DNA of 64,000 bases. It comes from Muribaculaceae bacterium Isolate-104 (HZI). Lineage in GTDB: Bacteria; Bacteroidota; Bacteroidia; Bacteroidales; Muribaculaceae. Positions 14,922 to 57,514 of the stretch are shown in pieces; the stretch's first letter is position 1, and each line of letters opens with the position of its first letter. The stretch lies in the NCBI GenBank assembly GCA_003762715.1, contig RIBJ01000030.1, positions 1 to 64,000 on the forward strand, read 5' to 3'. Made by a program: the position numbers and the translations under genes. The notes under the pieces were generated by a model that was not told where the DNA came from, ran no database searches, and worked only from the letters and a program-made list of their open reading frames with translations.

Positions 14922-14927
14922 ATATTG

Positions 14928-15091: not shown

Positions 15092-15100
15092 ATTATGTCG

Positions 15101-15173: not shown

Positions 15174-15181
15174 TTAGATAG

Positions 15182-16091: not shown

Positions 16092-16153
16092 AGGTGTATT
16101 GGGTGTTGTGCCGCTCCGACCTGTGTTGTCGGAGCGACTGATTTACCTGCTGA

Positions 16154-16393
16154 TTACTTCATCATCATTACATTGCAGTCGATTACGTCTGAGCCAAGTC
16201 CAAAAGCTGGGAAATGGCTGAAATACGGATGGCTGCTCCCTTCCTCGTCCGTTGCCGGACTGACCGTCACGACATTGTTTTGCTCCCACCATTTGTCGAT
16301 GATGGCTTTGTCCTCGTCCGAAAGATTGTCGGTAGTGCCGTTTATGAGATAGCATACTGCCCAGACGGGTATTTTCTCGATTGTAAATTCCAT
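16154..16393 (-). CDS. Small conserved hypothetical protein
   Basis: A 79-residue protein: MEFTIEKIPVWAVCYLINGTTDNLSDEDKAIIDKWWEQN, then the motif PYFSHFPAFGLGSDVIDCNV near the C-terminus. The pattern LINGD/T..LSDED.. and YFS..PAFGLG..V.DC recurs in small proteins encoded near ICE and phage accessory genes of Bacteroidetes; their function is unknown. The start lies 11 bases after the preceding gene's stop. Confidence 0.65.
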   Translation of the reverse strand: MEFTIEKIPVWAVCYLINGTTDNLSDEDKAIIDKWWEQNNVVTVSPATDEEGSSHPYFSHFPAFGLGSDVIDCNVMMMK

Positions 16394-32392: not shown

Positions 32393-32403
32393 AGTCTGTA
32401 TAG

Positions 32404-32871
32404 TTAGAAAGGAATCTTCAAACCTATGAGCAGACCGTTCCGGAACGTATCGCCGTGCAGGAAGTTGACGTTGTTCTTCTGGATCAGCGAGAACTCCCAA
32501 CCGTTTTGAAAGACGTAATTGTATTCAAACCCGGCTTCCGCGCCGAGGAAGCACTTTCGTTCGACGGCTCCGAACTGCGGCCCGAAACGAAAGCGTAACA
32601 TGCCGTTCTTATATCGGGCAAGACGATGCTTGTAGAGGATGCCGCCATCCCAGTAGTATCCTTTCCAGAACTCACCGGGGGACGTGCGCCAGTGGTTGCC
32701 GATTTCACCGAACACTTCCACCGCGTTGCCGTAGGAAAACGAGTGTTCATAGCCGATGGTAGCGTTGAGCGTTGAAGGGGAAAGGAATCCGGTATTGACG
32801 GTCAGTTTTCCCTGGGCGTATGCGCCAGCCGATACGACGGCGCATATGAGAGCGAGGATTATCTTCTTCAT
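32404..32871 (-). CDS. traO: TraO-like outer-membrane beta-barrel protein
   Basis: A 155-residue protein with a signal peptide (MKKIILALICAVVSAGAYAQG) and alternating beta strands ending in Phe (LLIGLKIPF), as in small outer-membrane barrels. Its position after TraN and its size match conjugative transposon TraO. It lies nine bases downstream of traN. Identification depends mainly on operon position and barrel-like pattern. Confidence 0.75.
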   Translation of the reverse strand: MKKIILALICAVVSAGAYAQGKLTVNTGFLSPSTLNATIGYEHSFSYGNAVEVFGEIGNHWRTSPGEFWKGYYWDGGILYKHRLARYKNGMLRFRFGPQFGAVERKCFLGAEAGFEYNYVFQNGWEFSLIQKNNVNFLHGDTFRNGLLIGLKIPF

Positions 32872-36145: not shown

Positions 36146-37321
36146 TTATTGTTCCGGATTACCGAAATTCTTATGTTTTAGATTGTTTTCACCGATAGCT
36201 CCGAGTGTTCCTGCAACGCTGCCTGCACCACCTGCCACCATCGAGGTGGCTGTGACTGCGGCAGACCCGGCTGTCATAGCGGCACCCATCGCGAATGCGC
36301 CTGACGAACCTGCGACACCGCTGCTAACACCTCCGGGGATGAGCCATGAAGCGACTTCCGGAACATAGCGTATTATATATGCGCCGACTAGCATACCCAT
36401 AGCGTACATACAGTTGGAGCCTATGCCCTGAAGGCCCAATGCCCCGATCTGCGACCATGAGTTGACCGAGCCGTTGAGCAGATGCTCGTAGGCGATCATA
36501 TCCTGCTGGAGATTGTAGAGGAGAATGAAGTCGATGTAGTACAGGCACATATATGTGATGAACCCCCATAGGGTCAAAGAGAGATACTTCGACATCCACT
36601 GGCTCCATGCGGAGTTCCAAGGCGGAGCGAGCGACATGGCGAACATTATCGGACAGAATATAGCCATGATAGCGAGAAATATCCTCTGTGCCACCAATAT
36701 ACCGTAGTACGACATCTGGAAAATCAGTTCACCGACAAATCTGATCACGTCGTTAATCCACTCGCTGACCTTGGTCTCTGCGGCGACTGCGGCACGCTGG
36801 GCATAGTTGTTGATGGTATTGCCGAGATTCTCCACATTGTAGATGAGCTTGTCCCACCAGTTGGCATCCTCGCCAATGGCGGCCACCTGCTGCGCCGTGG
36901 CGATGGAGTCCTGCACGGCACGTAGCCTTTCGAGATACTGACCCTGCTTCTGCGCCACCTTCAACTCGAAAGCCGCCACCTCCTTGTTCTTGGACTTCGC
37001 CATAGCCTTTGTTGTAGCCTCCAGCCCCTTGCCCGGGGTCTGCAACGCGGAACAGATATATGAAGAGCATGAAATGCATATAGAGATACCGACAATGCGA
37101 AGCAGCTTCATCACGTCCATGCCACGTCTGCCGAGCATCATCATCCAACACTCGTATGAGCCGACACAAAGTGCCAGCAACAGTCCGATAATCCGTGCGA
37201 GGCTCACGGCATCGCCGAGAACCGCCACATTCGGGAACGTCTCCATAGCGACAAGAAGTTTGTCGAGGCTGTCATCGATGGAGGGAAGCCCCATGGTACA
37301 AAGAATAGAAAGTAAAGTCAT
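36146..37321 (-). CDS. traJ: TraJ conjugation protein (VirB6-like)
   Basis: A 391-residue polytopic inner-membrane protein. Several hydrophobic segments surround a periplasmic or cytoplasmic helical loop; the motif LVAQRIFLAIMAIFCPIMFAMSLAPPWNSAWSQWMSKYLSLTLWGF is characteristic of TraJ. The C-terminal 60 residues are Gly/Ala-rich. It is the VirB6-like channel component. Confidence 0.9.
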   Translation of the reverse strand: MTLLSILCTMGLPSIDDSLDKLLVAMETFPNVAVLGDAVSLARIIGLLLALCVGSYECWMMMLGRRGMDVMKLLRIVGISICISCSSYICSALQTPGKGLEATTKAMAKSKNKEVAAFELKVAQKQGQYLERLRAVQDSIATAQQVAAIGEDANWWDKLIYNVENLGNTINNYAQRAAVAAETKVSEWINDVIRFVGELIFQMSYYGILVAQRIFLAIMAIFCPIMFAMSLAPPWNSAWSQWMSKYLSLTLWGFITYMCLYYIDFILLYNLQQDMIAYEHLLNGSVNSWSQIGALGLQGIGSNCMYAMGMLVGAYIIRYVPEVASWLIPGGVSSGVAGSSGAFAMGAAMTAGSAAVTATSMVAGGAGSVAGTLGAIGENNLKHKNFGNPEQ

Positions 37322-38723: not shown

Positions 38724-39505
38724 TTGAACTGATTGATAATGTCGATTTTGTCATAGTCAATCTGGAGCTTGTCGATTTTATGTAGACCGTTCCAGTCATT
38801 AACAAGGCCGTTGACCTGATTTGTCATCACCACAATGTTCGCCCAGCCCTCCGGGTCAATGGCGAAGAACAGGTCGTTCATGGTGGCATACTGTGCCATA
38901 GCCATCATACCCTGAACCTTGTAGCGGATATTCATCAGGTCGGAGTAGATGCGGTTTGCGAGAGTAAGACGCTCGTATCGGTCAAGGAGATTGTAGCCGT
39001 CGCTCTTTGTCTCGGCGGTAGCCTGACCTTTCAGCGGATTCCTGACCTTGGCGTTGTTAACGATATTCACGAAGTCAGCTACAAGCTGCTGGGTCTCGGT
39101 GACGATGTTGCCGAGTTCGTTAAGGCACAGCAACTTGTTTGTGAACTTGGCGCCATTGACCACCTTGATGAGTTCGGGCACGTCAAGGATTATGTCGAGG
39201 GCGCAGCGTCCTATCTCGACATAATATTTGCTCTCAGTGCCGAAGCCGGATACATTCTCCATAGTCAGCTTGTACACCTCCTTGATGGTAGCCATGCTGA
39301 TGGTGTACTGTTCCAGCTTCCTCTGCTTCGAGGCGATGGTGTCGAGACGTTTGTTGTGTTCGTCCTCTATTGCCTTCTGCGAAGCCATGTTGATGCCGAC
39401 CTGCTCGATTGTCTTCGGGTCAATTACAATCTTCCACTGGGCATAGCCGCTCTCAGCCATGAGAGTGACTGCAATGATTGGGAGTATGTATCTTAATCCT
39501 ACCAT
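38711..39505 (-). CDS. traI: TraI-position exported protein (VirB5-like)
   Basis: A 264-residue protein with a signal peptide ending GYAQW and long helices (KAIEDEHNKRLDTIASKQRKLEQYTISMATIKEVYKLTMENVS...), followed by NDLFFAIDPEGWANIVVMTNQVNGLVNDW. Position after TraG and helical structure match TraI, the VirB5-like protein. A paralogue lies outside the tra operon at 20019-20756. It overlaps the end of traG by seven bases. Confidence 0.7.
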   Translation of the reverse strand: MVGLRYILPIIAVTLMAESGYAQWKIVIDPKTIEQVGINMASQKAIEDEHNKRLDTIASKQRKLEQYTISMATIKEVYKLTMENVSGFGTESKYYVEIGRCALDIILDVPELIKVVNGAKFTNKLLCLNELGNIVTETQQLVADFVNIVNNAKVRNPLKGQATAETKSDGYNLLDRYERLTLANRIYSDLMNIRYKVQGMMAMAQYATMNDLFFAIDPEGWANIVVMTNQVNGLVNDWNGLHKIDKLQIDYDKIDIINQFKWGF

Positions 39506-41037
39506 AATGACATTACTTTCTGACGATTGTTGACTTGTCTCGCGAAGTCGAGATATTTGCTGCTTCCGGCTTTCTTGCGGTCAATCTCTATATGGGTGAT
39601 TGCCTCCTGCATGGTGCCGTAGTGACGGAGATAGATTTTCAACGCCTCCTTCTCGGCCCGTTCGGTGGTGTATGCCCAGTAACATTCAGGCGGTTCCTCG
39701 ACACCGTACACATCCGAGTTCTGACCACGGCATATCCATACCTCCTTGAAGTAATTGCGGTTGTCATGGTTGTTCAGGGCATTGATGGTGAAGATCTGCT
39801 GACGCTGAATCGGGGTCAGACCGAGAATTGCGGCGATGTCCTCATACCTGTCCTTGAACTTTGTCTGGTCGAGAAGTATCTTCACGTCCGAGTTGTTGAT
39901 GATTGCCTCCTTGACAATCGGGGAGTCAATCACGTCGTTAAGTTCTTGAGTGACAACACCTGCAATGCCGTGAAACTTGCGGACCGTCTTGTAAAGATAC
40001 TTTATATACTCTGCCATGGTGGGCGAGGCAATCGCTTTCCATGCCTCCTCGATTATCAAGGCTTTGCGGCCTTTCTTGATACGCATTTTCTGTAGGAACA
40101 CGTCCATGATGATCAGCACGACGATAGGGAAAAGAACCGGATCATCCTTAATCTTGTCAATCTCGAACACGATAAACCTCTCGTCGAAGAGATTTACATC
40201 GAGGTCGGAATTGAGCGTCATTTCCAGCTCGCCGCCACGGTAGAACTGTTTTAGAATGGCGGCAAAATCCCGGATGTCGAACTTGATTTTCTCCAGAGAG
40301 GTAATCTGCGGTATGCGTTCGAGAGCAAACTCATAATAGCTGTTGAATGACAGCTCCTTGACCTTAAGACGGCGTTTCTGCTCCTCCATGTGGTCAATCT
40401 GTTTGTCAATCTTCATCAACATTGAGTTCTCGTATAGCTCCTTTTTGTAGAGTTCAAGTTTGGCTGCCGCTTTCTGCTTCTCGGATTCGGTGGTTGCCTT
40501 GTCTGTCAGCATGGCACGGAACGCCCGGCACTGACGGAGTATGCGGTTACGCCTTTCCTCGGCAGGGATGACAAGTGCGTGGCTCTCGATTTTAGGAACC
40601 TCACGTTTAATCTGCTCCTCGATGTCCTCCATCTCATGCGCGAACTTCTCATAGTCATTCTCCATCTTGGCTGCGACAAGCAATTTCTGACGGAGACCGT
40701 CACGCTCTTCATCGGTGAATCTGTCGAACGGATGAAAGTATGCATCGTAGTATTCCACGATAGTCTGGTTGACAAGCATATCCTCGATTTTGGAAGGTAG
40801 CTCGTTGCCTTTGAAAATCAGGAATATCAGGGATTTAAGAAAGTTCTTCTTCTCACCGAAGTTAAGGTCATATTCCTCGCGTGTGACCTTAAACGGATTC
40901 ATGGAGATAGGCTTCTCCTTGGAATAGCTGATATAGGTGCCTCCAAAGTAGCTGCATATGCCCTCGTAAGAGTCTCCGGTATCGACCATAACCACATCAG
41001 TATTCTGTTCAAGAAGCTGACGCACAACACTGTTCAT
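39499..41037 (-). pseudogene. traG: traG (VirB4 ATPase), 3' part split off by the inserted element
   Basis: The open frame of 512 codons begins at the insertion site (FH-M-NSVVRQLL). It contains VMVDTGDSYEGICSYFGG, Walker B KALIIEEAWKAIASPTMAEYI, and GIAGVVTQELNDVID, all from the C-terminal half of a VirB4-type ATPase. The Walker A part is in 51125-52417. Its first ATG is the codon of the target repeat itself and has no ribosome-binding site of its own, so whether it is translated separately is unknown. Confidence 0.9.
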
Positions 41038-41045
41038 GTGGAAGC
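41035..41045. other. Left 11-bp target repeat of the inserted element
   Basis: CATGTGGAAGC occurs here and at 51125-51135. It is codons FH-M of traG (minus strand CTTCCACATG) and is the likely core or crossover site of the integrase at 48867-49973. Confidence 0.85.
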
Positions 41046-41455
41046 AGTTAAATTGTTATGTATCTGTGTTTAATAACATTAAACGGTACGTCCGAGAACC
41101 AAAAATCCTATGTGTGGGCTAAAAATGGCGTACCGTAACCGAAGAAAGTGTGTTTCAGTGCATTAGGTGGTGTAAATACAATATTACGGAAACTTTGTCA
41201 AAGAGTGGTGTTTCTTAATTATTTTATATTTTACTTTACAATCTTTAACTGTGTATTTGGGGCTGTTTTTTGCTATTGGTACTTCCAAAATGGCTGTCCG
41301 CACTTGTCGGCGTATCAAAATCGGGTCGAGGGGTTTCCCCTTGCAAGGGTGTTTTGCGGAGGGCGAATGTCCGACAAAAACACATCTTGCAGAGGCTATC
41401 GAACACCAACTTTGCCAATGTCGGATTTAATCACACTGAAAAGTAGGCTAATACG
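41046..41455. other. Left end of the inserted element, gene-free
   Basis: No gene was identified. It contains the inverted repeat ACGGTACG/CGTACCGT (about 41081-41089 and 41130-41138), possibly recombinase or excisionase binding, and the oriT-like hairpin at 41343-41390. Confidence 0.5.
41343..41390. promoter_or_regulatory. oriT-like hairpin in the inserted element
   Basis: Outer arms GCAAG...TGTTTT pair with AAAACACA...CTTGC around GGAGGGCGAATGTCCG. The same plan, with different arm sequences, is seen at 58315-58376 beside the ICE mobA gene. It may be the transfer origin. Confidence 0.5.
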
Positions 41456-41485
41456 TTGATATGTCTGATTTTTGATGTATCTTTG
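41456..41485 (+). promoter_or_regulatory. Promoter of the KilA-N gene
   Basis: TTG at 41456-41458, a spacer of 19 bases and TATCTTTG at 41478-41485 match the Bacteroidetes consensus. The start codon lies 27 bases downstream. Confidence 0.7.
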
Positions 41486-41512
41486 CATTTGAAATCAAAC
41501 GCTTATCCCCAA

Positions 41513-42316
41513 ATGGCAAAAATCACAGTTCAAAATACTCCAATTACCGTAATCGGAGTTGACGGTGATGATTATATTTCGCTGACAGATATGGCTAAAA
41601 GCCAACTGCAAGAACATATAATATTCCGTTGGCTCAGTCTCAAAGGCACGATTGAATACCTCGGCGAATGGGAGATGCTATATAATCCGGATTTTAATTG
41701 TACCGAATTCGGTGCAATTAAAAATGCAGCCGGGAGCAATAATTTTGTCCTTTCCACAAAGGCATGGATTGAGCGTACAAACGCTAAAGGCATAATTGCC
41801 AAGGCAGGACGCTATGGCGGTACTTACGCGCACAGGGATATTGCGTATCACTTTGGTATGTGGTTAAGCCCAAAATTCCAACTTCTCCTTGTAAAAGAAT
41901 ACCAACGACTTAAAGCCGAGGAACAGCGGCTAATTGGATGGTCGGCGAAGCGTGAGTTGTCGAAGATCAACTACCGCATACACACCGATGCCATCAAGCA
42001 GAACCTTATTCCGGCAGAGGTCACTAAAGCACAAGCGAGCATAATCTATGCCAATGAAGCCGATGTGTTGAACGTAGCAATGTTCGGTTTGACAGCGAAA
42101 CAGTGGCGTGAGGCTAACTCCGATTTGAAAGGTAATATCCGCGACTATGCCTCGGTCAACGAACTAATCTGCCTATCCAATATGGAAAGTCTCAATGCTG
42201 TGTTCATAGAGCAAGGGCTGCCACAGTCAGAGAGACTTATCAAACTCAATCAAATTGCCATCCATCAGATGAGCGTGTTGGAGAGTGGTGATAATGACCG
42301 TAAACTTTTGAAATAA
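41513..42316 (+). CDS. KilA-N domain protein
   Basis: A 267-residue protein beginning MAKITVQNTPITVIGVDGDDYISLTDMAKSQ, followed by IIFRWLSLKGTIEYLGEWEMLYNPDFNCTEF and AGRYGGTYAHRDIAYHFGMWLSPKFQLLLVKEYQRLK, a full KilA-N DNA-binding domain as in phage antirepressors. The remainder (KINYRIHTDAIKQNLIP...EQGLPQSERLIKLNQIAIHQM) is typical of Bacteroidetes KilA-N proteins. The ATG at 41513 is chosen over an in-frame ATG at 41456, which would lie in the promoter. Confidence 0.88.
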   Translation: MAKITVQNTPITVIGVDGDDYISLTDMAKSQLQEHIIFRWLSLKGTIEYLGEWEMLYNPDFNCTEFGAIKNAAGSNNFVLSTKAWIERTNAKGIIAKAGRYGGTYAHRDIAYHFGMWLSPKFQLLLVKEYQRLKAEEQRLIGWSAKRELSKINYRIHTDAIKQNLIPAEVTKAQASIIYANEADVLNVAMFGLTAKQWREANSDLKGNIRDYASVNELICLSNMESLNAVFIEQGLPQSERLIKLNQIAIHQMSVLESGDNDRKLLK

Positions 42317-42335
42317 AACGTATAAAGCGATTGAA

Positions 42336-44009
42336 ATGAAACATATTATGAGATTGTTGGTTTTTTTGATAGATGCGACTGGTTCATTTTTCATTTATTT
42401 GATTGTCGCTTTCATTATTTCATATACTAAGTTTCTCCCCTTTTTCAGAGGCTTCTTTTTTATATGGGTAATTTACTATATAGTTTGTTATCTAATATGG
42501 AGAAGGACTTTAGGTCAAACCATTACCAATCACAGCATTTCAGATTCTGGTGGCAGTCGTAGCTATGCTATACGTATTATTCTTAGAGAAGTCCTTACAA
42601 GTGTTCCGGGTGTGGTTATTTTGACATTGGGATGGGGAAATCTCTCAATTATACGAACTCTATCGTTGTCGTTGATTTGTTGCATCATAGTAATTCTCCG
42701 GAAAAAGCTATTCAAGATTTCTATAATTAAAAAGAGAACTCTACCATTAGTCTATAAAAGAGCTGTCTCAACATATTTTATTCTGCTTATAGTAGCTTTC
42801 TTCGCAAGAGCCTTAAATGCCGAACTTACTTATAATCATTCAAGTAAAGAGTCTTTTTTGTATGCGAGACCGAGACCATCTGCCAATTCCGTTAAAGTTT
42901 ATGCTGATTTCTTGAAAAATAATAGGCAAGATATCAATGATTATATCCTCGGACTATTCGAGCAATATGACCATGTGATACTGTGTGAGCGTGCCCATCG
43001 TGAGATGACCCAATATGATATGATTTACAATCTTGTGACAGACCCACGATTTGTAGATGAAGTCGGCAACGTATTTACTGAGATTGGGAATGTAGAGTCA
43101 AGAGATGCCTATAAAGCATTTGTTGGCACAAATTATGCTAATGAATCAGCTGTTGACAGTTGCCTTAGCTCCTTTATGGTTGATAACCAAAGTGTGCATT
43201 TATTATGGCCAAATACAAATTGGTTTGAGTTCCTTAAAAAGATGTACTATTTCAATAACAATCATGATAAAAAGGTAGAGATACTTTTCTCAGACAGAAA
43301 TTGGATTGAAAGGAAAGAGCTCAATTTCAGAGACAGTATAATGGCTGACAATATTATCAATACCATAAAATCAGACAGTATCAATAAGTCTCTGATTATT
43401 ATGAATTACCGACACGCATATCTTACACCGGGAAATTGCGGATATTTTGTGAGTAGAAGTTTTCCTGGAAAGGTTGCAAATGTTCTGATAAACACATGTA
43501 AAGCATATTTACCAGCTATTATTATGGGAAAGGAAATGATGGTTCCTATTCAAGACGGGAAGTGGGATGTGGCGTTTGAACAGATACCAGATTCCTGTTA
43601 CGCGTTTGATCTTAAATCTTCTCCGTTCGGGAACGACCGATTTGACCATTTCGTACTCCCATGGGACCCGGTTTCATCCCTAAAATATGAGGATGTGTTT
43701 ACCGGTTTTATATTTTATAAAAGTTTGGATAACCACATTATGAGTATCGGTTATCCTAACATTTTTGATTCTGACAATTTAGTCAAATTGCGCGTTAGAG
43801 AAAAAGCAATGGAAGTATATTCATTGGGCTATTGGATTGAAAGCCTGAAGGATGGAGTACAGACTCAAAAAGGAATAGATTTTTATAATGAATTAAATTT
43901 GATTGAAAATAAAGTTCTATTAACCGTATTTATTCTTGGCGTATTCTTATTCGTTGTGTCTTTGTTATTGTACGGTCACAACTCAAAGTCAGTTGGAGTC
44001 AGGGATTGA
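42336..44009 (+). CDS. RDD-domain membrane protein fused to an erythromycin-esterase-like domain
   Basis: A 557-residue protein. Residues of about 1-165 have four to five membrane segments and the RDD pattern (IDATGSFFIYLI...RRTLGQTITN...R-I-ILREVLT). A C-terminal half faces the outside or the periplasm and carries the pattern of the EreA/ChaN-like superfamily: HVILCERAHREMTQYDM, FRDSIMADNIINTIK (RDxxMAxN) and IMNYRHAYLTP. A final membrane helix lies at about residues 533-551. Known Ere enzymes hydrolyse macrolide lactones, but this protein has no proven substrate. The gene is AT-rich relative to its neighbours. Confidence 0.65.
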   Translation: MKHIMRLLVFLIDATGSFFIYLIVAFIISYTKFLPFFRGFFFIWVIYYIVCYLIWRRTLGQTITNHSISDSGGSRSYAIRIILREVLTSVPGVVILTLGWGNLSIIRTLSLSLICCIIVILRKKLFKISIIKKRTLPLVYKRAVSTYFILLIVAFFARALNAELTYNHSSKESFLYARPRPSANSVKVYADFLKNNRQDINDYILGLFEQYDHVILCERAHREMTQYDMIYNLVTDPRFVDEVGNVFTEIGNVESRDAYKAFVGTNYANESAVDSCLSSFMVDNQSVHLLWPNTNWFEFLKKMYYFNNNHDKKVEILFSDRNWIERKELNFRDSIMADNIINTIKSDSINKSLIIMNYRHAYLTPGNCGYFVSRSFPGKVANVLINTCKAYLPAIIMGKEMMVPIQDGKWDVAFEQIPDSCYAFDLKSSPFGNDRFDHFVLPWDPVSSLKYEDVFTGFIFYKSLDNHIMSIGYPNIFDSDNLVKLRVREKAMEVYSLGYWIESLKDGVQTQKGIDFYNELNLIENKVLLTVFILGVFLFVVSLLLYGHNSKSVGVRD

Positions 44010-44181
44010 TAAACATATAATCAAAATAATTGGATTCCAAGTATTTTCAAGCCATAAAATGAGGCTGTTACAGCCTTATGGTACAAAAGGGAGACAAATA
44101 AGGTGATTTTACATATCGGAGGTATAACCGAACTATCAGCCCTTAACATCCGTTTAGATAATATTACAAAAATACTCGGAT

Positions 44182-46491
44182 ATGAGAACAATCACCTGCG
44201 CCTTATGCATAGTCATGTCAGCAGCACTCTCTATGTCAGCAAAAAATGTTACCGGAACGGTAATAGATGAGACACAGCAACCTGTTTCATTTGTCAACGT
44301 CGTGCTTATTGCTGACTCTACTTTCATAGACGGGAAAGTCACTGATGATGCCGGGCGTTTTCTATTTGAAAATGCAGACAGCACTGCCAACAAAGTCAAA
44401 ATATCAATGATTGGTTACGAGGACTTGGTATTGCCTATCCCTGCTGACGGTAATTTCAATACTCTTTCCCTGACACCATCGTCTGTGATGTTGGGTGAAG
44501 TGGTTGTCAAGGCAAATTTACCCTCTACCCGAATAAAGGGCAATGCGATAGTCACCAACGTGGAGAACAGTGTGTTGGCCACCACTGGCTCGGCTAATGA
44601 TGTGCTTAAAAATGTACCGATGCTGACAGGCAGCAACGGTAATTTCAGCGTGTTTGGCCGTGGCGATGCAATAATCTATATCAACGGTCGCCTCGTGAGA
44701 AATTCAAGCGAGGTGGGGCAACTTGCTTCCTCGGACATCAAGGAGGTACAGGTTATCAATAATCCCGGTGCGCAGTATGGAGCAGACGTGAACGCCGTGA
44801 TAAAGATTGTCACCAAAAAGCCGGTTGGCGAAGGGTTCAGTCTTTCCGCATATACTGATAATATTTACAACAAATGGTTCACCACAACTGAACAGCTTGA
44901 TTTGAAGTACCGTACAGGCGGACTTGAAATATTTGCCACTGGCAATTTCAGTCATGGCAAGAACTATGACGATGAATACATTTTGAGTACCACAAATGGC
45001 AAATCGGTACTATCTATGGTATCGCAAGAGTCCGTCAGCACAACGAAGACCGCAATATCCGGCAAAATCGGATTTAACTATCAATTCAACGATAACCATA
45101 GTATCGGTGCCTATTACCAAAATGATTATAACCGAGGACACCACTTCGGACATTATCTTAACGATATTTCCGAAAACGGCACACTGTCGGAGTCGAGTAC
45201 ATCTGATCTTAAAGGTTGGTTCAAGGCCCTCCCTTGCAACAGCGCTAATATATATTATAACGGCACCGTCGGAAAATTCAGTTTTGATGTGAACGGTGAC
45301 TATATGCAGACAAAGGATAATGACCGCACATATCAGTACGAGCAAAACCAATTTTCCGACAACCGTAATGTAACGACATTCAACACCTCCCGAAACCGCC
45401 TTTTCGCTGAAAAGGCCACGGTGTCATATCAGCTGCCGAAAGGGAGCGTACTCATCGGAGAAGAATATACCAACTCTCGCAGCCGTAACGATTTTCAAAA
45501 TCCGGAAGCGATATTGAACAGCGAGGAAACCGATGTGCGAGAAAGCAATATCGGTGTGTTCGCGGAAGTCAGCCAGACTTTCGGAGATTTCAGCGCATCG
45601 GCCGGAGTTAGATACGAACACGTTAAATCCGACTATTATATCAACAATCGGCTCGCAGACGGGCAGAGCAAGACCTATGACAATTTCTTCCCGTCGGCCA
45701 ACATAACTTATTCTCCCGGTGATTTCAGGTTTTCTTTATCATACAGCAACCGGACCGTGCGACCGACATATCAAAATCTTAACGGCAACTACTTCTATGT
45801 AAATTCCATTTTATATACCCGTGGCAACCCATATCTCGTGCCCTCTAAACGGCAAGACTTTACCGCACAGGCATCTTGGAAATACATAACACTTTCAGCT
45901 CAGTATTCCTACACAAAAGATGCTATCGTGCAGGTCTATGAACCGTATGAGGGCAACGACCGTATCAACGTGTTTACCGTCACCAATATGCCGAGCCATA
46001 AGTTGTTTTCAGTATTTGTGAACGCCTCTCCTCAATTCGGCATATACCACCCATCGCTCTCCTTGGGCGTGCAGGAGCAGTGGTTTGATGTCGAATATCT
46101 TGGGCAGCATAAGAAAATGAACAGCCCCATATTCACCATTCAGATGAATAATACCCTGACACTTCCGCACGATTGGTTTATCGAGGCTTCACTATGGTGG
46201 CGCAGTCACGGTGATTGGAAGAACTGGGCCTATACCCATACTCTTTCAACCGTCAATCTCCGGGTCTATAAAATGTTCCTTGACAAAAGCCTTACCGTTT
46301 ATCTTGGCGTGAATGACATATTCAACGGTCAGATATACAAGGCAAATATATACAGCGGCAATGTGATGATGCAGTCAAATGTCAACAATCACGGTCGAAA
46401 TGTGGAGTTGACAATCCGCTACAATTTCAACACCTCAAAGAGCCGCTACAAAGGAACAGGAGCCGGACAGACAGAGAAAAATAGATTTTAA
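44182..46491 (+). CDS. Outer-membrane TonB-dependent receptor-like barrel
   Basis: A 769-residue protein. A signal peptide (MRTITCALCIVMSAALSMSAK), a carboxypeptidase-like regulatory domain (GTVIDETQQPVSFVNVVLIADSTFIDGKVTDDAGRFLFEN), a plug (ATTGSANDVLKNVPMLTGSNGNFSVFGRGDAIIYINGRLV...SDIKEVQVINNPGAQYGADVNAVIKIVTKKP) and a long barrel. No SusD partner follows. Barrels of the OMP_b-brl_3 type take up or sense unknown substrates. Upstream, 172 bases hold a GGCTG/CAGCC hairpin but no evident promoter. Confidence 0.9.
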   Translation: MRTITCALCIVMSAALSMSAKNVTGTVIDETQQPVSFVNVVLIADSTFIDGKVTDDAGRFLFENADSTANKVKISMIGYEDLVLPIPADGNFNTLSLTPSSVMLGEVVVKANLPSTRIKGNAIVTNVENSVLATTGSANDVLKNVPMLTGSNGNFSVFGRGDAIIYINGRLVRNSSEVGQLASSDIKEVQVINNPGAQYGADVNAVIKIVTKKPVGEGFSLSAYTDNIYNKWFTTTEQLDLKYRTGGLEIFATGNFSHGKNYDDEYILSTTNGKSVLSMVSQESVSTTKTAISGKIGFNYQFNDNHSIGAYYQNDYNRGHHFGHYLNDISENGTLSESSTSDLKGWFKALPCNSANIYYNGTVGKFSFDVNGDYMQTKDNDRTYQYEQNQFSDNRNVTTFNTSRNRLFAEKATVSYQLPKGSVLIGEEYTNSRSRNDFQNPEAILNSEETDVRESNIGVFAEVSQTFGDFSASAGVRYEHVKSDYYINNRLADGQSKTYDNFFPSANITYSPGDFRFSLSYSNRTVRPTYQNLNGNYFYVNSILYTRGNPYLVPSKRQDFTAQASWKYITLSAQYSYTKDAIVQVYEPYEGNDRINVFTVTNMPSHKLFSVFVNASPQFGIYHPSLSLGVQEQWFDVEYLGQHKKMNSPIFTIQMNNTLTLPHDWFIEASLWWRSHGDWKNWAYTHTLSTVNLRVYKMFLDKSLTVYLGVNDIFNGQIYKANIYSGNVMMQSNVNNHGRNVELTIRYNFNTSKSRYKGTGAGQTEKNRF

Positions 46492-46546
46492 TTAGCGACT
46501 AAGGAATTGATTATCTTATTCTAAACTACTATATCTTGGCTATTTT

Positions 46547-48007
46547 TCATCGTCTCATACCTCTGCGTTGTGGCTGTTCAAGATCCTCCATGACAGCAGG
46601 GAAAGATGAAGTGAGGCGGTCGAGTTCCTTGCTGCCTTTGTCAAATTCTTTGTCGGTCAGAAACGGTCGGGCGAACACCTTGACAAAATGGGCGTTTGAT
46701 TTCGGATCGTCTCGATCGAGTGCGAGCCATGACACAATCGCCTCCTTATGCTCGCGTGTGAAAGTCTTGTATGCCAACACCCTTGCGAACTGAATGAGGG
46801 CGCGGACAGCCTTTTCAAGTTTCTCGCCGAGCAACCGCAACATCGCCTCCATCTGAGCAAGTAGCGTGTCTTTCTCACGCTTCAGATTGTCTATGATATG
46901 GCGGTTGTTGCTCTCCAGCTCGCGGTATCGGGTGGAGAGCTGCCGCAACTTGACTTCAAGGGAAGATAATTCACGGCTGTGCGATGCGTTCAGCTCCCGG
47001 ATTTCGGTCAGATGTTCCTCGGTCTTTTCCTCGATGGTCTGACGTACCTGCCTCTGCACCATCATCGGGATTTTAGCCACCTGTGCCTCCATCTTAGCCA
47101 CGGCAAACTGCATATCCTTGTTCTCGGCTGTTAGCCGTGCGTTCTCTTTCTCAATCTCCGCATATTTACCTTTGCCGAAAAGATTTGCCACACCGCTCAT
47201 GAGTGCGCTGCCGCTCTCCTCGTCAAGTGCCTTTTTCTTCTCCTTGCGCTGTTGTTCAAGTTCTTCAATGGACTTCTCAGCAGTCATCGCTTGCAATTCA
47301 AGTTGCTCGTTCCGGCTTTCAAGCACAGCGTTCTCAGCCGTGAGCCTTTGGGTGTTCTCACGCGCTTTCCGCTCCTTGTACTCTATGGCACTCAGCCCCT
47401 CTATGCCGGAGTCCTCTTTGGGAGTGCCGCGTTCCATGCCGAGGCTTTCGGCAAGCGCTGTCTGCATTTCCTTACAGTCGTTGGCATCGAGTTTGACGCT
47501 CTTTCCTGTATCGTGGTTCATCCAATCGACAATGATGTGGGCGTGATGGTTCGGCAGCAGATCATCGGTCAGAGGGTCGGCATGACCCTCGTCATGGTGG
47601 AGGTCGATGCTTATAACGGAGATACCCTTGTCGGCGAGCCATTTCACGAACAGGTCAAAATCCTCTATGCGCGTGTCCGGCTTGATGGGAGGGCAACCCT
47701 CGCGGATAGCCGAACTGCCCGACCGCTTCCGCTTCTTTCCTGTCTTGCGGTCAGTATATTCCACATCCTTGCACTGCATGGCGCGTCCGGTCTTTTGCTT
47801 GACAAGCACCTTGAGGTCTTCAAGCAGCTCCTGCAGAGGCTTTGTGTAGGACGGACTGCGCCACGTCACATTGAGGTGGCGGTGTTCGTCCCAGAAGTAT
47901 GTCTGCCCGAACTTTCGGGCAACAGCCTCGCAGTAGGCTCTGTCGCGGCGATTGTGCGCCTCGGCAGTGCCTACATTGCAGGGCTTGAATTTAATTCCGG
48001 TTTTCAT
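46547..48007 (-). CDS. MobV-type relaxase
   Basis: A 486-residue relaxase. The N-terminal domain has MKTGIKFKPCNVGTAEAHNRRDRAYC, ISIDLHHDEGHADPLTDDLLPNHHAHIIVDWMNHDTGKSVKLDANDCKEMQTALAESLGMERG, the histidine motifs of Mob_Pre/MobV enzymes. The C-terminal half (residues of about 230-450) is a long coiled coil. It would nick the element's transfer origin. The start at 48007 is chosen because the earlier in-frame start adds a non-conserved leader. The upstream 284 bases carry a hairpin array. Confidence 0.88.
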   Translation of the reverse strand: MKTGIKFKPCNVGTAEAHNRRDRAYCEAVARKFGQTYFWDEHRHLNVTWRSPSYTKPLQELLEDLKVLVKQKTGRAMQCKDVEYTDRKTGKKRKRSGSSAIREGCPPIKPDTRIEDFDLFVKWLADKGISVISIDLHHDEGHADPLTDDLLPNHHAHIIVDWMNHDTGKSVKLDANDCKEMQTALAESLGMERGTPKEDSGIEGLSAIEYKERKARENTQRLTAENAVLESRNEQLELQAMTAEKSIEELEQQRKEKKKALDEESGSALMSGVANLFGKGKYAEIEKENARLTAENKDMQFAVAKMEAQVAKIPMMVQRQVRQTIEEKTEEHLTEIRELNASHSRELSSLEVKLRQLSTRYRELESNNRHIIDNLKREKDTLLAQMEAMLRLLGEKLEKAVRALIQFARVLAYKTFTREHKEAIVSWLALDRDDPKSNAHFVKVFARPFLTDKEFDKGSKELDRLTSSFPAVMEDLEQPQRRGMRR

Positions 48008-48039
48008 AATCCGTAAGGGAAAAGAGTGTTTCAATATCG

Positions 48040-48315
48040 CGGGTTCTCAGACGAAGGGTCTGAGCGAGAGGTGGCGGAGAGGGGTCATCTCTGCCGATGG
48101 GTTCTTAGGGGTGAACGCCCTAAGCGGAGGGTGCAGGGAGAGGGTCACTCCCTGCTTGGGGTTCGCAGGGGCAACGCGCCCTGTGCGGGTCAAGGGCAGA
48201 GCCATTGCGGGTTCTTAGGGCAGAGCCATAAGCCCCTCGGGAGAGCCCACAACTACGGGAGCGAAGCGGAGTAGTTATAGTGGGCTATAACAAGGGCAAG
48301 CCCTGTCAGTCTCCA
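48040..48315. promoter_or_regulatory. Hairpin array upstream of the MobV gene
   Basis: At least five successive inverted repeats: CTCAGAC/GTCTGAG, CTTAGGG/CCCTAAG, GCAGGGAG/CTCCCTGC, CGCAGGG/CCCTGTGCG and, largest, AGCCCAC+AACTAC/GTAGTT+GTGGGCT at 48244-48286. Several units begin with GGGTTC. No gene is seen. An origin of transfer or a regulatory leader is likely. Confidence 0.55.
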
Positions 48316-48318
48316 CCC

Positions 48319-48783
48319 TCAAAGACCGCCTCTCGGCTTGCGGCGTTTCGACTCTTTCAGCTTCAGCAGATGTCGGTCGTAGGCATCGCGGTTTTCATCT
48401 GAACGGAAGTCGATGTCGGCTTTGCCTCCGCTCTTAATCCATGCCAGAAGTTCATCCTTGAAGAAATAGAGTTTGTTGCCGCGCTTGCTGAACGGTATCG
48501 CCTTTTGGCTTGTCAGCGAATAGATAGTGCCGACACTCTTGCCGAGCAGTTCGCTCGCCTCCCTTATGTCAAGGACGGTGTGTTGGTCGGCTTCCTCCTG
48601 CGGTGCGCTTATGAGCCTGTCAAGTTTCTCCATGACGGTATCCACCTTACGCATGAGGCTTGCCACATAGTAAGGCAGACGGTCAAATGATGGCATCGTG
48701 TTATCGGATGATGTGTTGTCGTGAGCGACCGATACCGCGATACTGCAGTGTGTGTTGTCCTGTGTATTGCTTGAAGATTGCAT
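48319..48783 (-). CDS. Excisionase-like HTH protein
   Basis: A 154-residue protein with a C-terminal HTH of the MerR/excisionase type: HTVLDIREASELLGKSVGTIYSLTSQKAIPFSKRGNKLYFFKDELLAWIKSGG. Such proteins help a tyrosine recombinase to excise the element. It is encoded between the MobV gene and the integrase. Confidence 0.8.
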   Translation of the reverse strand: MQSSSNTQDNTHCSIAVSVAHDNTSSDNTMPSFDRLPYYVASLMRKVDTVMEKLDRLISAPQEEADQHTVLDIREASELLGKSVGTIYSLTSQKAIPFSKRGNKLYFFKDELLAWIKSGGKADIDFRSDENRDAYDRHLLKLKESKRRKPRGGL

Positions 48784-48866
48784 ATCTTTATCTCTATATG
48801 ATTGTATTTCTTGATGTCTTTATCTGATTATATCTCCATGCCATGAAGCGATGATGATTGTATCAC

Positions 48867-49973
48867 TTACTCCAATGTTATCTTGTTAGCAGCTTCGCGT
48901 TTGAGTTCACTTACAACATCGGCATAAACCTGTGTCGTGGTCACATTGGTATGCGTGAGCATCTTCGACACGGTGTAGATGTCAGTGCCGGAGGCTATCT
49001 GCAAGGTAGCGAAAGTGTGCCGGAAGCAGTGGAAAGTGATGTGCTTGGTGATACCTGCCGCCGCTATCCAGTCTTTCAGATACACATGGCAGAGGCTTTT
49101 CGCCATGCCTTTGAACACCTGCCCCGTGCCACGTTCTCCGCACAGCCTCAAAGCCTCGTCACTTAAAGGCAAGGTCGCTTCGGTCTTGGTCTTCTGCGTT
49201 GTCAGACGCAGACACCAGCCACCGTCGGGAGCCTCGCAGATGTTCTCCCAACGCAGGGCTATGATGTCGCTTATGCGTAGTCCTGTGAGGCAGGAGAAAA
49301 GCGATGCCGTCTTGAACACCTCATGCTTGCAGGGAGTGGCGGCGAGGCGTTTCAGTTCCTCGTGGGTCAGAAATTCTTTCTTGGTCTTTTCCTCCTTTGC
49401 AGGTTTCAGAAAAGGAATGATGTTGTCTTTGAGGCGTCCGGCTGCAACGGCACGGCGGATCACGGCTATCAGTTTGCCGAAATTGTTGTTGGCAGTCGAG
49501 GCTTTCATCGTTCCTCCCGATGGCGTTTTCAGTTTCAGCATATGGGTCAGAAAGCCTTGGCAGAACTCCACGGTAATGTCATCGAAGCAGCACTCACCTT
49601 TGGCATAGTTGCAGAAATGCTTGAAAGCATTTTCCCAATTACGGTAGTTGGTGCTCTCGTTCATCGCCTCGCGGAAGTATTCGATGAAGCTCTCGCGCCC
49701 TTTGGAGTGGTCGATGAAGCCGAAATCTTGGTTGATGATGGACTGTATGCGCTGACAGCGTATCAGCTCGGCATTTTGCAGCATACTCTTGTTGTACTGC
49801 ACCTCGAATTTCTCTTTCGGGTGAGCATAGATGTAAATGCCGAGATATTCACGGCGGCTCAGTTTCCCTGTCCTCGGATTTCGGATAGCCGGATAGAAGT
49901 CAAGATAGAGTGACAGCTGACCGTTCTTGATTGGTCGCTTCCTCACGGTGACTTTGGTACAAAGGTTTGTCAT
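48867..49973 (-). CDS. Tyrosine recombinase of the inserted element
   Basis: A 368-residue integrase with an N-terminal SAM-like core-binding region and a complete catalytic domain: Arg233 in LTGLRISDIIAL, His315 and Arg318 in HCFRHTFATLQ, His341 in LTHTNVTTTQVY, and nucleophile Tyr350. All active-site residues are kept. It is likely to act at CATGTGGAAGC, giving integration into and excision from traG. Confidence 0.92.
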   Translation of the reverse strand: MTNLCTKVTVRKRPIKNGQLSLYLDFYPAIRNPRTGKLSRREYLGIYIYAHPKEKFEVQYNKSMLQNAELIRCQRIQSIINQDFGFIDHSKGRESFIEYFREAMNESTNYRNWENAFKHFCNYAKGECCFDDITVEFCQGFLTHMLKLKTPSGGTMKASTANNNFGKLIAVIRRAVAAGRLKDNIIPFLKPAKEEKTKKEFLTHEELKRLAATPCKHEVFKTASLFSCLTGLRISDIIALRWENICEAPDGGWCLRLTTQKTKTEATLPLSDEALRLCGERGTGQVFKGMAKSLCHVYLKDWIAAAGITKHITFHCFRHTFATLQIASGTDIYTVSKMLTHTNVTTTQVYADVVSELKREAANKITLE

Positions 49974-50009
49974 ATTCTAATTTTTTTATTCGTTTCTGAT
50001 TTCGGCACA

Positions 50010-50834
50010 CTAACCGCGCCCTTTCTTGGTAGATGTGCTACCGTCCTCCGCTTTCTTCCTCGCCTCGTCCCAATCGGCTTTCAAATAGTACATACGGCGG
50101 TTATACATCTTCTTCATCCTCACGCCGTGGGTCATGGCGAAGCGGCGTACCTGCGTCTTGCCGATACCGTATTTCTTCATGAGGTCGAAGCATGAGTACC
50201 AATCTTCCGAGAGGTCTTTGCCGAGGCGTTCAACCTCCGAAGCCATAGCCTCCTCCACCGCCTTTCGGGGGAAGCACTTGTGACCGTCCATCTTCACGCA
50301 CGGTATGGAGTACCGCATACGCAGGTTGTAGAACCTGCCATAAGTGTAGCTGTATTTCTTGCAGATTTCCTCCATCGTATATACAGGCTCCGTCAGCTCC
50401 GTGCTGTCAATGAATGTGTCCTTGACCGATTGCTTGTAGTCGGTGGACGGTTTCAGCTCGGATTTCGGCTTGCTACGCGGGCGGCGCGGTTTGGGTGCTT
50501 CCTGCGCCGCCGCTTTTTTCACGGTCTTGGCAACCGGCAGGGAGAGAGGTTTATCTTCTTTTCCCTGCTGTCGGCTGCTCTCAGAGGTGCGGTTGTATTC
50601 GTTTATCTTGATCATGTTGCAAAAATCATCCTTAGGTATTATGGTAACCCGGCTTGTCACTTTGGTAGCCCGGAGTGTGCCTTGATAAATCAGATTATAG
50701 ACTGTCCTTTCGCTCACTCGCAGAAGAATTGCAACTTCCGCTATTGTCAGGAACTCGTGACGGAGTATCTCTTTCTCCGAAACTCTCTTTGTCGCTCTCG
50801 CTGTCGTTTGCCTTACGGCTGTCGCTGTCTGCAT
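50010..50834 (-). CDS. HTH DNA-binding protein of the inserted element
   Basis: A 274-residue protein with an N-terminal excisionase-like HTH (ILRHEFLTIAEVAILLRVSERTVYNLIYQGTLRATKVTSRVTIIPKDDF), a basic linker and a second HTH-like region (YTMEEICKKYSYTYGRFYNLRMRYSIPCVKMDGHKCFPRKAVEEAM). Proteins of this two-domain design flank integrases on Bacteroidetes mobilizable elements. It probably regulates or takes part in excision. Confidence 0.78.
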   Translation of the reverse strand: MQTATAVRQTTARATKRVSEKEILRHEFLTIAEVAILLRVSERTVYNLIYQGTLRATKVTSRVTIIPKDDFCNMIKINEYNRTSESSRQQGKEDKPLSLPVAKTVKKAAAQEAPKPRRPRSKPKSELKPSTDYKQSVKDTFIDSTELTEPVYTMEEICKKYSYTYGRFYNLRMRYSIPCVKMDGHKCFPRKAVEEAMASEVERLGKDLSEDWYSCFDLMKKYGIGKTQVRRFAMTHGVRMKKMYNRRMYYLKADWDEARKKAEDGSTSTKKGRG

Positions 50835-51124
50835 GATACGGCTCTTTTAAGGGTTTGTATTCTTGCTGTCGCAGAGCCTCGGAAAAGGGGTGAAAAAGGG
50901 GCAAAAACGGCTGATTTTATCTTGAACCATCTTGAACGACGCTGAAAGAAAGTCGAACCGTGTGTCCCTCCCTCCGAGACCCAAATGCGGTACAAAAATA
51001 CTCCGAAAGGGTCGAATTTGAAAGAGCGAAAATTTTGAATTGTTAAATATAGCTATCTAAATATGAGCGCATTACGCTCAATCCGTTTGAGCCTCTTATG
51101 CCTCCGTTTGGGGCATTTTTTCTC
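50835..51124. other. Right end of the inserted element
   Basis: There is no gene apart from the 23 extra codons that extend the truncated traG frame. Two hairpins are seen near the end: TGAGCG/CGCTCA and ATGCC/GGGCAT followed by a run of T, the latter facing traG. Confidence 0.5.
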
Positions 51125-52417
51125 CATGTGGAAGCTCTTGCCGCTGCCACTTGGCCCGATGCAGAAGAAGTTGGCGTTGTCGGTCATCTTGACCTTGCCC
51201 TCCTTGCCGGTGATGTCGATACATACCGGAAGCCCCTGACGGTCGGTATAGTAAGTTGTCAGCGGCGTATTTTCAGAACCTTTGAGATGTTCCTTGAAAA
51301 AGAAGCATAGGGCGGCGTCAGAGAGAGTGAGGAACAGGTCATAGTCCGGATTGAACGAATAGGCGTTGCCGGGGAACGAGTCGATGAAGAGTTCAAGCTG
51401 ATTGTAGGCTGTTCTTGACGGCATGATGCCGCACTCGTAGAGCTTGGTCTCCAGATATGATGTAACGGGAGTGACTTTGTCGGCAGGACAGCTCACAAGG
51501 ATACTGAAGTTGGTGTTGACCAACAGAGAGGTATCGACGGCGAGGCGGTTTAGCACTTCCTCGATGTCTGCCTTTGCAATCTTATTGCTCGGGTCAGGCA
51601 TGGAGCCGTGACGCTTCGCCTTGGCTTGAAGCTTTCTCAACAGCTTACGCTGGTTCGGTATCTGCACCACCTGATTGAATACCACACAGTCCGAGAATGG
51701 AACGGATGTGAGGAACGAGAGCAGATCGGTGGCTATACCGTAGCCGTTGACACTCATCTGGGTGTATGGCTTGATTACCGAAGGAAGATTGATTTCGTCG
51801 ATGTCGACAAGCGGATAAGAACGGATTACGCGGTCACCGATTTTCAGATACTCGTCCGATGCCTTGAAATTGGTCATCGAGAAGGGGCCGTGTCTGAACT
51901 GAAACGCCATGAACCGGTGACAGTATTCGTTGACCTCCGGTTTTGAAAGCTTGCGGTGGCGGATTCCTTTCTCTGTAAGGATGTCGTTTACCTTGGATAC
52001 CTTTGAATGGAAGTCGAGCCATTTCTTAGGGTCGTACTGCACGAACTGGCTTTTCTGTGCCTCCTGTGTGATAATCAGGTAGGTGCGAATCTCGGTAAAT
52101 TCTCTTCCCTCGAAGTATTTGAAGTAGCTTCGGATAAGAAACTCGGCATCCTCCGGCACATCGTGGCGGTAAGATTGCTTGCACAGGACATCCTGCTTCT
52201 GGAGGGCATAGCCCTCGCCGAGAGTCTGCACTATATTTGAAAGCACATCCTGAAACAGCATGTACTGCTCGGCATCGGTGCATAGCTGCTGCACCGGGTT
52301 GGTCATCTCGAAGATGACAGACGGCTCACCCTTGGCTGAGAAAAGGACAACATTGCCGTCCGTTTCCTCCAGCTGTGCGTAAAGCCCGTCGAATATTCGT
52401 TTTTTGGATTGTGCCAT
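51053..52417 (-). pseudogene. traG: traG (VirB4 ATPase), 5' part truncated by the inserted element
   Basis: The frame of 454 codons holds the N-terminal half of a TraG/VirB4-type ATPase: FDGLYAQLEETDGNVVLFSAKGEPSVIFEMTNP, then ANFFCIGPSGSGKSFHM with the Walker A motif. TraG-derived sequence ends at 51125; the last 23 codons (EKKCPKRRHKRL...) come from the inserted element. The protein would have Walker A but not Walker B. VirB4 ATPases power channel assembly. Confidence 0.9.
51125..51135. other. Right 11-bp target repeat of the inserted element
   Basis: CATGTGGAAGC, identical to 41035-41045. The distance between copies is 10090 bases. Confidence 0.85.
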
Positions 52418-55927: not shown

Positions 55928-57514
55928 CTACATCTTCAATGTGCGGCCATCGTCAATATCATCGTAGTCGGGCTTCTTGCCGACCTCCCATTCGCGGTTG
56001 GAATCCGAGGCACCGCCTCCGGCATCTTGCAAAGGACGGATGCCGGACTTCTTGGGCTGAGACTGATGTTCCTTTGGTTTCTGAACAGTTGGCTGCTCTT
56101 TCTTTTGAGGTTTGTAGTCGAGTCTTGTCAGGTCGAAGCCCTCGGCCCTGAGGTCAATGATGATATATTCGTTGAAGTTTACAGCAAGAATATCTCCGGA
56201 TTCAGTGCGATGGATCTGAAAATCGGATTCCCTGATTGCACTTTTCAAATCCTTGTAATCAAGTGTAGTATTATCGAAGATACCGCGAAGCTGATTCACA
56301 GCCCGGGCTGCACTCGGTTTTCTCTCGGACATGAGGGAAATGAGGTCTCTGCGCTCCACCTTATATATTTGGCATAGGCGGTTAAGTTCAGCTTCGATGA
56401 CCGCCCCGAAACTCTCGATTCTGCCGATTCTGTCATTCCGGAGAATTGTCTCAGCCAACAGTGGATTGAGATTCCGGCTCTCATCCCCATAATAGAGAAC
56501 ACCTCTTTTTATATAGGCGTGTGAGCGACGCAGCTTTTCGTTGATGTCGAAGGTCGTTGCCTTCGGATTAGCAGCAAGAACGCTGTCGATGAAAGCATCT
56601 ATGCGATCCAAACGTTCCTCCGCGGTGGCGAAGTCGAGCAACAGCTCCATTTTGAGAACATGCCCTCCATGTAGCACCTCCTTTCTATTATGGTCGATAA
56701 TGATATATCCATAAGGCTTGTCCTTTCGCCCGAAGAAAACAAGGTCGATGCCAAAGTTCTTCTTCAAGTCTGCCTGTAGTCCCTTTACATCGGTATTGAC
56801 GTTACGATACTTCAACAGCAGAGCCTTTATCTCTCGCTGTCGCTGACGGTTTCGTCTGCGCTCCGGGAAGGAATCTTCAATCTCAGAGACAGCAACCTTC
56901 ATCTGGACGGTTCCCTGCCTCTTTATATATAATGTGTCGTCCTTGACATAGCTCTCATACCCGAGGGAGGAAAGGAGAGCCTTGAACTGTGCCATCGAGG
57001 TGTAGCAGTAACCCTTGGCTTTTTCCAAATCCTTCTCTGTTTTCTTCCGTGCGTCCTGGCCGAGAATCCTGTCGATTGCCCTTTGAGAGCGTATCCGCTC
57101 CTGACTGTCGTTAATCTTGGTTCCGTCAGGTGCGACTCTTGATGTGACGATGTGAATGTGATTGTTTTCCGTATCGCGGTGGGCATATACGAGCAACGGC
57201 TGACCCTCCTGACCATACCCCATCTCTTTGAGATAGGCGTGGGCGAAGTCGAGCAACTCGTCTTCTGTCATTTCCTTCCCTTTGCAGGATATTGCAAGAT
57301 GAAATTGGGTCTGATGGATCCGCCCGTTCCGTTCTGAATAGGTCTGGAGATAAGAGCGCAGCTCTTCAGGAGCAGGCTTACCGAAGCTGTCTATGTCTTC
57401 GAGAATCCCGAAGTTCTTTATCTCGATAAGACGAGCCGTGCCTTTGGCTACCTTGCGCTCGTTGTAAAGAACGGCATGGAAGTTGGGACTGCCGGGAAGG
57501 ATTGTTGCAATCAT
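55928..57514 (-). CDS. mobB: MOBP-type relaxase
   Basis: A 528-residue relaxase/mobilization nuclease: MIATILPGSPNFHAVLYNERKVAKGTARLI, RNGRIHQTQFHLAISCKGKEMTEDELLDFAHAYLKEMGYGQEGQPLLVYAHRDTENNHIHIVTSRVAPDG (three-histidine motif HRDTENNHIHI). It nicks the ICE transfer origin and is carried into the recipient. The C-terminal half contains a second unnamed region and a disordered tail ending GRTLKM. With MobA upstream it forms the relaxosome. Confidence 0.9.
   Translation of the reverse strand: MIATILPGSPNFHAVLYNERKVAKGTARLIEIKNFGILEDIDSFGKPAPEELRSYLQTYSERNGRIHQTQFHLAISCKGKEMTEDELLDFAHAYLKEMGYGQEGQPLLVYAHRDTENNHIHIVTSRVAPDGTKINDSQERIRSQRAIDRILGQDARKKTEKDLEKAKGYCYTSMAQFKALLSSLGYESYVKDDTLYIKRQGTVQMKVAVSEIEDSFPERRRNRQRQREIKALLLKYRNVNTDVKGLQADLKKNFGIDLVFFGRKDKPYGYIIIDHNRKEVLHGGHVLKMELLLDFATAEERLDRIDAFIDSVLAANPKATTFDINEKLRRSHAYIKRGVLYYGDESRNLNPLLAETILRNDRIGRIESFGAVIEAELNRLCQIYKVERRDLISLMSERKPSAARAVNQLRGIFDNTTLDYKDLKSAIRESDFQIHRTESGDILAVNFNEYIIIDLRAEGFDLTRLDYKPQKKEQPTVQKPKEHQSQPKKSGIRPLQDAGGGASDSNREWEVGKKPDYDDIDDGRTLKM

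Follow-up and report, generated by a model that had tools for sequence, protein, structure and literature searches.

A putatively mobilizable element family that splits the VirB4-type traG gene of Bacteroidales conjugative elements at its Walker A codons

We analysed a stretch of 64,000 nucleotides (hereafter the window) from Muribaculaceae bacterium Isolate-104 (HZI), corresponding to positions 1 to 64,000 of the forward strand of contig RIBJ01000030.1 (assembly GCA_003762715.1). In this window, traG, the VirB4-type ATPase gene of an integrative and conjugative element (ICE), is split within its Walker A motif (GKSFHM|NSVVRQ) by a nested mobile element of 10,090 bp at 41046..51135 (one repeat copy counted). 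This element is very probably a member of a family of putatively mobilizable integrative elements that have specialised in ICEs and possess a tyrosine integrase specific for the Phe-His-Met-Asn P-loop codons of traG. The insertion is precise to one codon, ends and target are conserved, and close relatives carry empty sites. Moreover, separate insertions occur in identical as well as in very different traGs, and near-identical elements sit in different traGs. The two parts of traG and the two copies of the attachment site lie as follows (window positions).

51053..52417, minus strand: traG N part, through Walker A (GPSGSGKSFHM), the frame then continuing for about 20 codons into the element; TIGR03783 profile positions 24-456.
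51125..51135, minus strand: attachment site copy on the integrase side, within the traG codons for Walker A (GKSFHM).
41035..41045, minus strand: attachment site copy at the distal (cargo) end; reverse complement GCTTCCACATG, then AAC (Met-Asn of the traG C part); crossover inside CAYATG.
39499..41037, minus strand: traG C part, beginning MNSVVRQ at the Met of GKSFHM; PF19044 E 1.5e-110; TIGR03783 334.2 bits (cut-off 261.55), profile positions 552-825.

An initial annotation of the window had proposed that an element of about 10.09 kb lies between two repeat copies in traG, and this is borne out by the reading of the junctions and by a genome-wide repeat count: CATGTGGAAGC occurs exactly twice across the whole 2.84-Mb genome, starting at window positions 41035 and 51125. 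Shuffling gave 1.3 expected matches to this 11-mer in the window when one mismatch was allowed; the repeat pair alone could be due to chance, and the weight of the evidence lies in its position. The GC content of the element is 45.8%, versus 50.5% and 48.5% in its flanks. As had also been supposed, both parts of traG belong to one protein, being successive stretches of a single family, TIGR03783 (Bac_Flav_CT_G), of which profile stretch 451-555 was matched in a separate search. The same genome encodes five further intact TraGs, which are 24-26% identical to the broken one in the N half and carry GKSFFTNH in place of GKSFHM; they are thus not orthologous copies of it and do not amount to the conserved second traG that the initial annotation had named as a possible objection. 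These five genes are devoid of the FHM / CAYATG site and are unbroken.

Intact and split forms of this traG coexist in other genomes (G and L numbers are our handles for genomes and loci). In a first sample of 397 genomes of the window's family, searched for matches to the traG N part at E 1e-60 or better, 10 of 36 traGs were split (9/35 without the window), with frames of at most 480 aa and, in all ten, an element junction at the same codon. The 26 others read through the site, 25 with GKSFHM-NS and one (L119) with GKSFHI-NS. An integrase lies behind eight of the ten split traGs, the other two ending at a contig edge, and eight of nine integrases of at least 60% identity adjoin a split traG, with up to five candidates scored per genome. 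The initial annotation had expected removal of the insert to restore a single traG frame and had set the search for uninterrupted traG with this target as a check; indeed, homologues in G131 (same genus) and G265, 93% identical each, have a 957-aa frame in which GKSFHM-NSVVRQ is uninterrupted. A second sample, of 123 genomes of another family centred on G682 (a genome chosen for having the integrase), gave 5/11 split traGs (4/10 without G682), the six unsplit ones comprising four with FHM and two with another motif (L196, L197). In the third, of 399 genomes of a third family centred on G906, 12 of 71 frames had at most 505 aa: 11 were split (one, in G1258, with an atypical junction) and one (G1298) was at a contig end and was left out of the split count. 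When five previously known genomes (six matches) were removed, 6/65 were split, the contig end being undecided. Junctions were read here for 11 short and 27 of 59 long frames (24 FHM, two FHT and one FFM), and the remaining long ones were judged by frame length. L196 and L246, which have a differing motif and a long frame, were counted as intact. The split share of these traGs therefore varies by sample from about 9% (6/65) to 45% (5/11). The same junction is present in genomes of named strains, for example Bacteroides gallinarum DSM 18171, Hallella multisaccharivorax DSM 17128 and Phocaeicola coprophilus An818.

Unsplit traGs with GKSFHT (L211, L216) or GKSFHI (L119) are without CAYATG, and G914 holds an unsplit FHT traG next to a split FHM traG. 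Such traGs could be escape alleles.

GKSFHM junctions were read at 20 left and 10 right ends, with further ones in the family samples. Since left ends keep the host Ser and Phe codons, and right ends the host sequence from the Asn codon onward, the crossover must lie inside CAYATG, the His-Met codons. The integrase would be directed at the codons TTY CAY ATG AAY in traG of a Bacteroidales ICE group. The 11-bp target repeat of the initial annotation holds for the two copies in the window and not for the family, whose members share a repeat of at most 9 bp (TTCCACATG). The remaining two bases are part of the Ser codon of the host; they read GT, CC or CG in relatives and match in the window by luck, because its Ser codon is AGC.

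An integrase scan returned 423 relatives, of which 80 were kept; the tree contains 79 of these and the window copy (L069 was too short). A single clade of 34 rows (support 100/100) contains every traG insertion of this tree. The tyrosine recombinase had been annotated as having an intact active site, and the catalytic residues R, K, H, R, H and Y are present in 34/34 clade rows, the window's included. When a rumen subclade of relaxed targeting (L015-L024 and L026; 11 rows) is set aside, 22 fetched loci remain. Of these, 19 share the traG codon of insertion, whereas L005, L007 and L028 lie elsewhere. Some loci overlap, being from the same genome (G159/L003, G043/L004, G167/L044 and G829/L014 are examples). 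Bacteroidales-type element contigs L005 and L006 stand in bins named Roseburia or Clostridiales and are likely mis-binned. The rumen subclade might aim at an FFT-type Walker A via a TTCTTCACC core, but most insertions of this subclade fall outside traG, and the nearest relatives of L241, which lies in traG with an odd junction, are all FHM. Viral contigs yielded ten integrases, none of which was informative: the identity was 33-42% for eight full or partial ones and 59% for a fragment. Plasmids yielded two, at 52% identity.

The sister clade (46 rows) has another target. The gene upstream of its integrases ends in F[CS][IV]G[KR] in 37 rows, and the three such genes tested, out of three, were MnmE above cut-off; these elements sit at the 3' end of mnmE. 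Their integrases (about 49-55% identity to the window's, likewise with an upstream gene) are related to those of the traG-splitting elements, but their insertions lie past the last codons and leave the host gene whole. The tree suggests a target shift between traG and the harmless mnmE 3' end, whose direction depends on the root.

Comparison of elements with their traGs points to repeated, separate insertion. Elements L008 and L009 are 99.4% identical over 9,751 bp, while their traG flanks can be aligned over 257 bp on the N side (67% identity) and over 614 bp on the C side (71%). Conversely, L009 and L014 have flanks that are 100% identical over 1,282 and 1,498 bp and elements that differ (84.5% identical where aligned; 9.75 versus 6.8 kb). 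In the pair L013/L030, traG is 0.2% different and the integrases 34%; in L004/L029, these values are 0.9% and 38%. Six genomes in which 900+600 nt of traG are 100% identical comprise three empty sites (L229, L230, L231), one element type in L034 and L238, and another in L200. A second traG lineage, with N parts 94-96% alike, has empty sites in L099, L221 and L243 and elements in L004, L029, L097 and L179; the C half that follows L097 (L204), however, is no more than 86.5-88% similar to the others of that lineage. Finally, the same element type is found twice in G1220, in two traGs that differ from each other, beside a third traG that is intact; the two copies are 96.3% identical over 2,223 bp, the last 0.3 kb of the traG N part included.

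The attachment site of the free element (attP) was deduced by joining the outer ends of 18 two-ended elements, the window's not among them. Twelve of the 18 have two cores, CATATG and CACATG, with ends exactly 11 bp apart, CATATG coming first in eight and second in four; in L176/L205, of this two-core type, the right-end copy of the used core is CGCATG. A single core is found in L003, L004, L177, L200, L201 and L203/L204, and likewise in the window's element. The four insertions in CAT hosts (L006, L008, L044, L103) are all at CATATG, and the 17 two-ended insertions in CAC hosts, as well as the window's, are at the CACATG core. In the CAT cases with a left end only, CACATG follows 11 bp on in L006 and L103 and not in L044. 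The core used agrees with the host His codon as read at the junction, an agreement that is partly circular because the junction is also the source of the host codon; the TTT Phe codon beside CAT is host sequence, which supports the host-codon reading. The best single case is again L008 versus L009, near-identical elements of which one sits in a CAT host and one in a CAC host, each having used a different core. We lean slightly towards the view that the integrase addresses a protein motif and not one DNA sequence, two cores 11 bp (one helical turn) apart admitting either CAT or CAC as the P-loop His codon. This idea is post hoc, and two-core elements are confined to few lineages. If true, the two-core attP would be the recombinase's way of tolerating synonymous change of its target.

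From the N-part side, the element encodes an excisionase-like helix-turn-helix (HTH) protein, the tyrosine integrase, a second HTH protein and a relaxase-like protein, then, on the opposite strand, a beta-barrel protein, a 557-aa protein and a KilA-N protein.

50010..50834, minus strand: excisionase-like HTH protein, 274 aa, possible directionality factor; TIGR01764 42.6 bits (cut-off 28.8).
48867..49973, minus strand: tyrosine integrase, 368 aa, with arm, SAM-like and catalytic domains; PF00589, PF13102, PF17293.
48319..48783, minus strand: second HTH_17 / excisionase-type protein, 154 aa; profile matches.
46547..48034, minus strand: relaxase-like protein with an HxDE...HxH motif, found in 8/8 homologues.
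44182..46491, plus strand: cargo, outer-membrane beta-barrel protein (OMP_b-brl_3), 769 aa; family scan.
42336..44009, plus strand: cargo, 557-aa protein, membrane-like by eye, without family match.
41456..42316, plus strand: cargo, KilA-N domain protein; PF04383 E 1.1e-20.

Two excisionase-like proteins had been annotated, in agreement with the TIGR01764 match and the HTH_17-type protein; relatives of the 274-aa protein adjoin the integrase in traG-inserted loci. Defined ends, direct repeats, relatives with empty sites and a site-specific integrase of its own are features of an integrative and mobilizable element (IME), as is the lack of any match to type IV secretion system (T4SS) genes among the eight insert open reading frames (ORFs) scanned. 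KilA-N proteins 75% and 68% identical to the window's are encoded in related-integrase loci (L023:20578-21105 and L024:14804-15616, respectively), and a major facilitator superfamily transporter (PF07690, PF05977) is cargo in L011:14555-15772. In elements of the L029 type (L031, L034), putative mobilisation genes of 131 and 421 aa (by eye) replace the relaxase-like gene. Some inserts are far larger, the split traG halves being about 24.5 kb apart in G130 (L203/L204), about 33 kb in G909 and perhaps 43 kb in G912 (the genomes of L027 and L033).

The carrier has a TIGR03783 TraG together with other Tra and Mob genes, as expected of a Bacteroidales conjugative transposon, the TraG C part and TraM being above cut-off.

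30083..32500, minus strand: MobC-type coupling protein (VirD4-like); NF041326 493.7 bits, under the cut-off of 900.
33843..35042, minus strand: TraM; TIGR03779 178.9 bits, above cut-off.
36146..37321, minus strand: TraJ-like protein; TIGR03782 54 bits, under cut-off.
55928..57514, minus strand: MobB-like relaxase; NF041325 103.8 bits, under cut-off.

Seven tRNA genes are clustered at window positions 14687-15269, and no resistance gene was above cut-off among the window ORFs scanned, which were part of the total.

According to the mechanism that we propose, the integrase would join attP to the traG site, and the ATPase, split at Walker A, would leave the carrier T4SS disabled while the element is inserted. 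The xis-like proteins may then drive excision, which, if precise, would restore traG, and the element could exit via the re-activated carrier T4SS or via another conjugative element of the cell. Such a target would suit the element because it lies in a mobile vehicle, is dispensable to the cell and, encoding the ATP-binding loop, changes little.

Several observations weigh against this interpretation or restrict it. Among the 33 fetched clade loci, 12 are outside traG, versus 20 in traG and one (L019) whose end is off the contig; nine of these 12 belong to the rumen subclade, as do L019 and one of the traG insertions (L023). The relaxase-like protein had been called a MobV relaxase, an assignment that we could not uphold: neither it nor its homologues reached a curated relaxase model in family-model scans, a PDB search with its alignment gave weak matches only, with no relaxase among them, and what speaks for it is its motif and, in 5/8 members, the window copy not among them, a weak match to PF03432 (E 0.002 at best). 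Element and traG distances are correlated, if weakly (Mantel r 0.19, p 0.017, 21 loci), and ICE identity was compared over traG only. In L003/G159, traG is broken once more within its C half, near residue 109, so that some carriers may be decaying. Moreover, excision, transfer and loss of conjugation are all predicted from sequence. Lastly, another intact TraG (at least 780 aa) is present in 15 of 25 split-traG genomes, the window's own counted among the 25. At the L003/L175 locus (G159:C54, about 15848-16279), where the C half stops near residue 109, the later part is on contig C53, and a second insertion is possible.

The presence of other intact TraGs, as well as the further break in L003/G159, would fit the main rival, namely that insertion kills the ICE for good, the element spreading only via other conjugative elements and its carriers being dead ends. 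We consider this unlikely, though it deserves to be taken seriously. No other intact TraG was found in 10 of the 25 genomes, some of which are incomplete (e.g. G241, 70%), so that a helper is not always present; in some cells, the element would have to exit via the restored T4SS of the carrier itself, or the copies would be stuck. In addition, the occurrence of identical filled traG stretches in records of different genera suggests that the ICE has moved recently, possibly while empty. The initial annotation had left open whether the insert is a parasite or a reversible switch. A programmed switch, kept by the ICE as its own on/off control and excised for transfer, would be consistent with the precisely restorable frame, the intact integrase residues, the two xis-like proteins and the open traG halves of the window and of most two-ended relatives. 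It is nevertheless improbable: unsplit traGs predominate (26/36; 6/11, two without the FHM motif; 59/71, one undecided), identical traGs hold different element types, and the histories of element and traG are weakly linked. For these reasons, we favour repeated invasion by a hitchhiker or parasite that damages its carrier over a built-in switch.

In P-loop ATPases, the Walker A Lys-Ser is part of the nucleotide-binding fold. The cut lies just past these residues, within that fold, and it is most improbable that the two parts of TraG form a functional split ATPase and that the insertion is harmless, even if the C part starts with an in-frame ATG from the target and has an open frame of 512 aa in the window. 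Several loci come from metagenome bins, and an 11-mer pair alone is not rare; an assembly artefact or chance repeat can still be practically dismissed, given the same junction in named strains and in three family samples.

Nested IMEs in ICE genes are already known from Firmicutes. PMC5704250 describes IMEs nested in genes of Tn5252-family ICEs, the targets being traG, SNF2 or Maff2-related genes (Tn6104, IME_Sco1050_traG). This source proposes that such IMEs excise on induction and states, in its section 3.5, that ICEs carrying them in traG had yet to be assayed for transfer. As in those systems, insertion here is site-specific in a conserved ICE gene, and transfer is presumed to be blocked until excision. 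In contrast to them (serine integrase, VirD4 coupling protein as target), the present elements have a tyrosine integrase, target the Walker A codons of a VirB4-type ATPase and occur in Bacteroidales; the name TraG denotes different proteins in the two systems. According to Table 1 of the same source, streptococcal IME_oriT likewise has a tyrosine integrase aimed at an ICE function, but its target is oriT and not a protein-coding motif. NBU1, NBU2, Tn4555 and Tn5520, listed there too, share the Bacteroidales hosts and tyrosine integrase (the first three being mobilised in trans), but instead of ICE genes their targets are tRNA 3' ends, AT-rich regions or two preferred sites. In the accessible text of PMC6907783, CTnDOT-like ICEs are reported to contain IMEs and an ICE; VirB4 targeting appears neither there nor in that of PMC11389934. 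Our literature search, for which most subscription papers and all bioRxiv preprints were beyond reach, found no published report of a traG Walker A target, and the VirB4 Walker A variant was thus not found in print.

To conclude, the empty and filled copies of identical traGs constitute a natural experiment on whether such elements behave as parasites, hitchhikers or switches. With about 9% to 45% of these traGs split, ICE counts in genomes can overstate transfer capacity.

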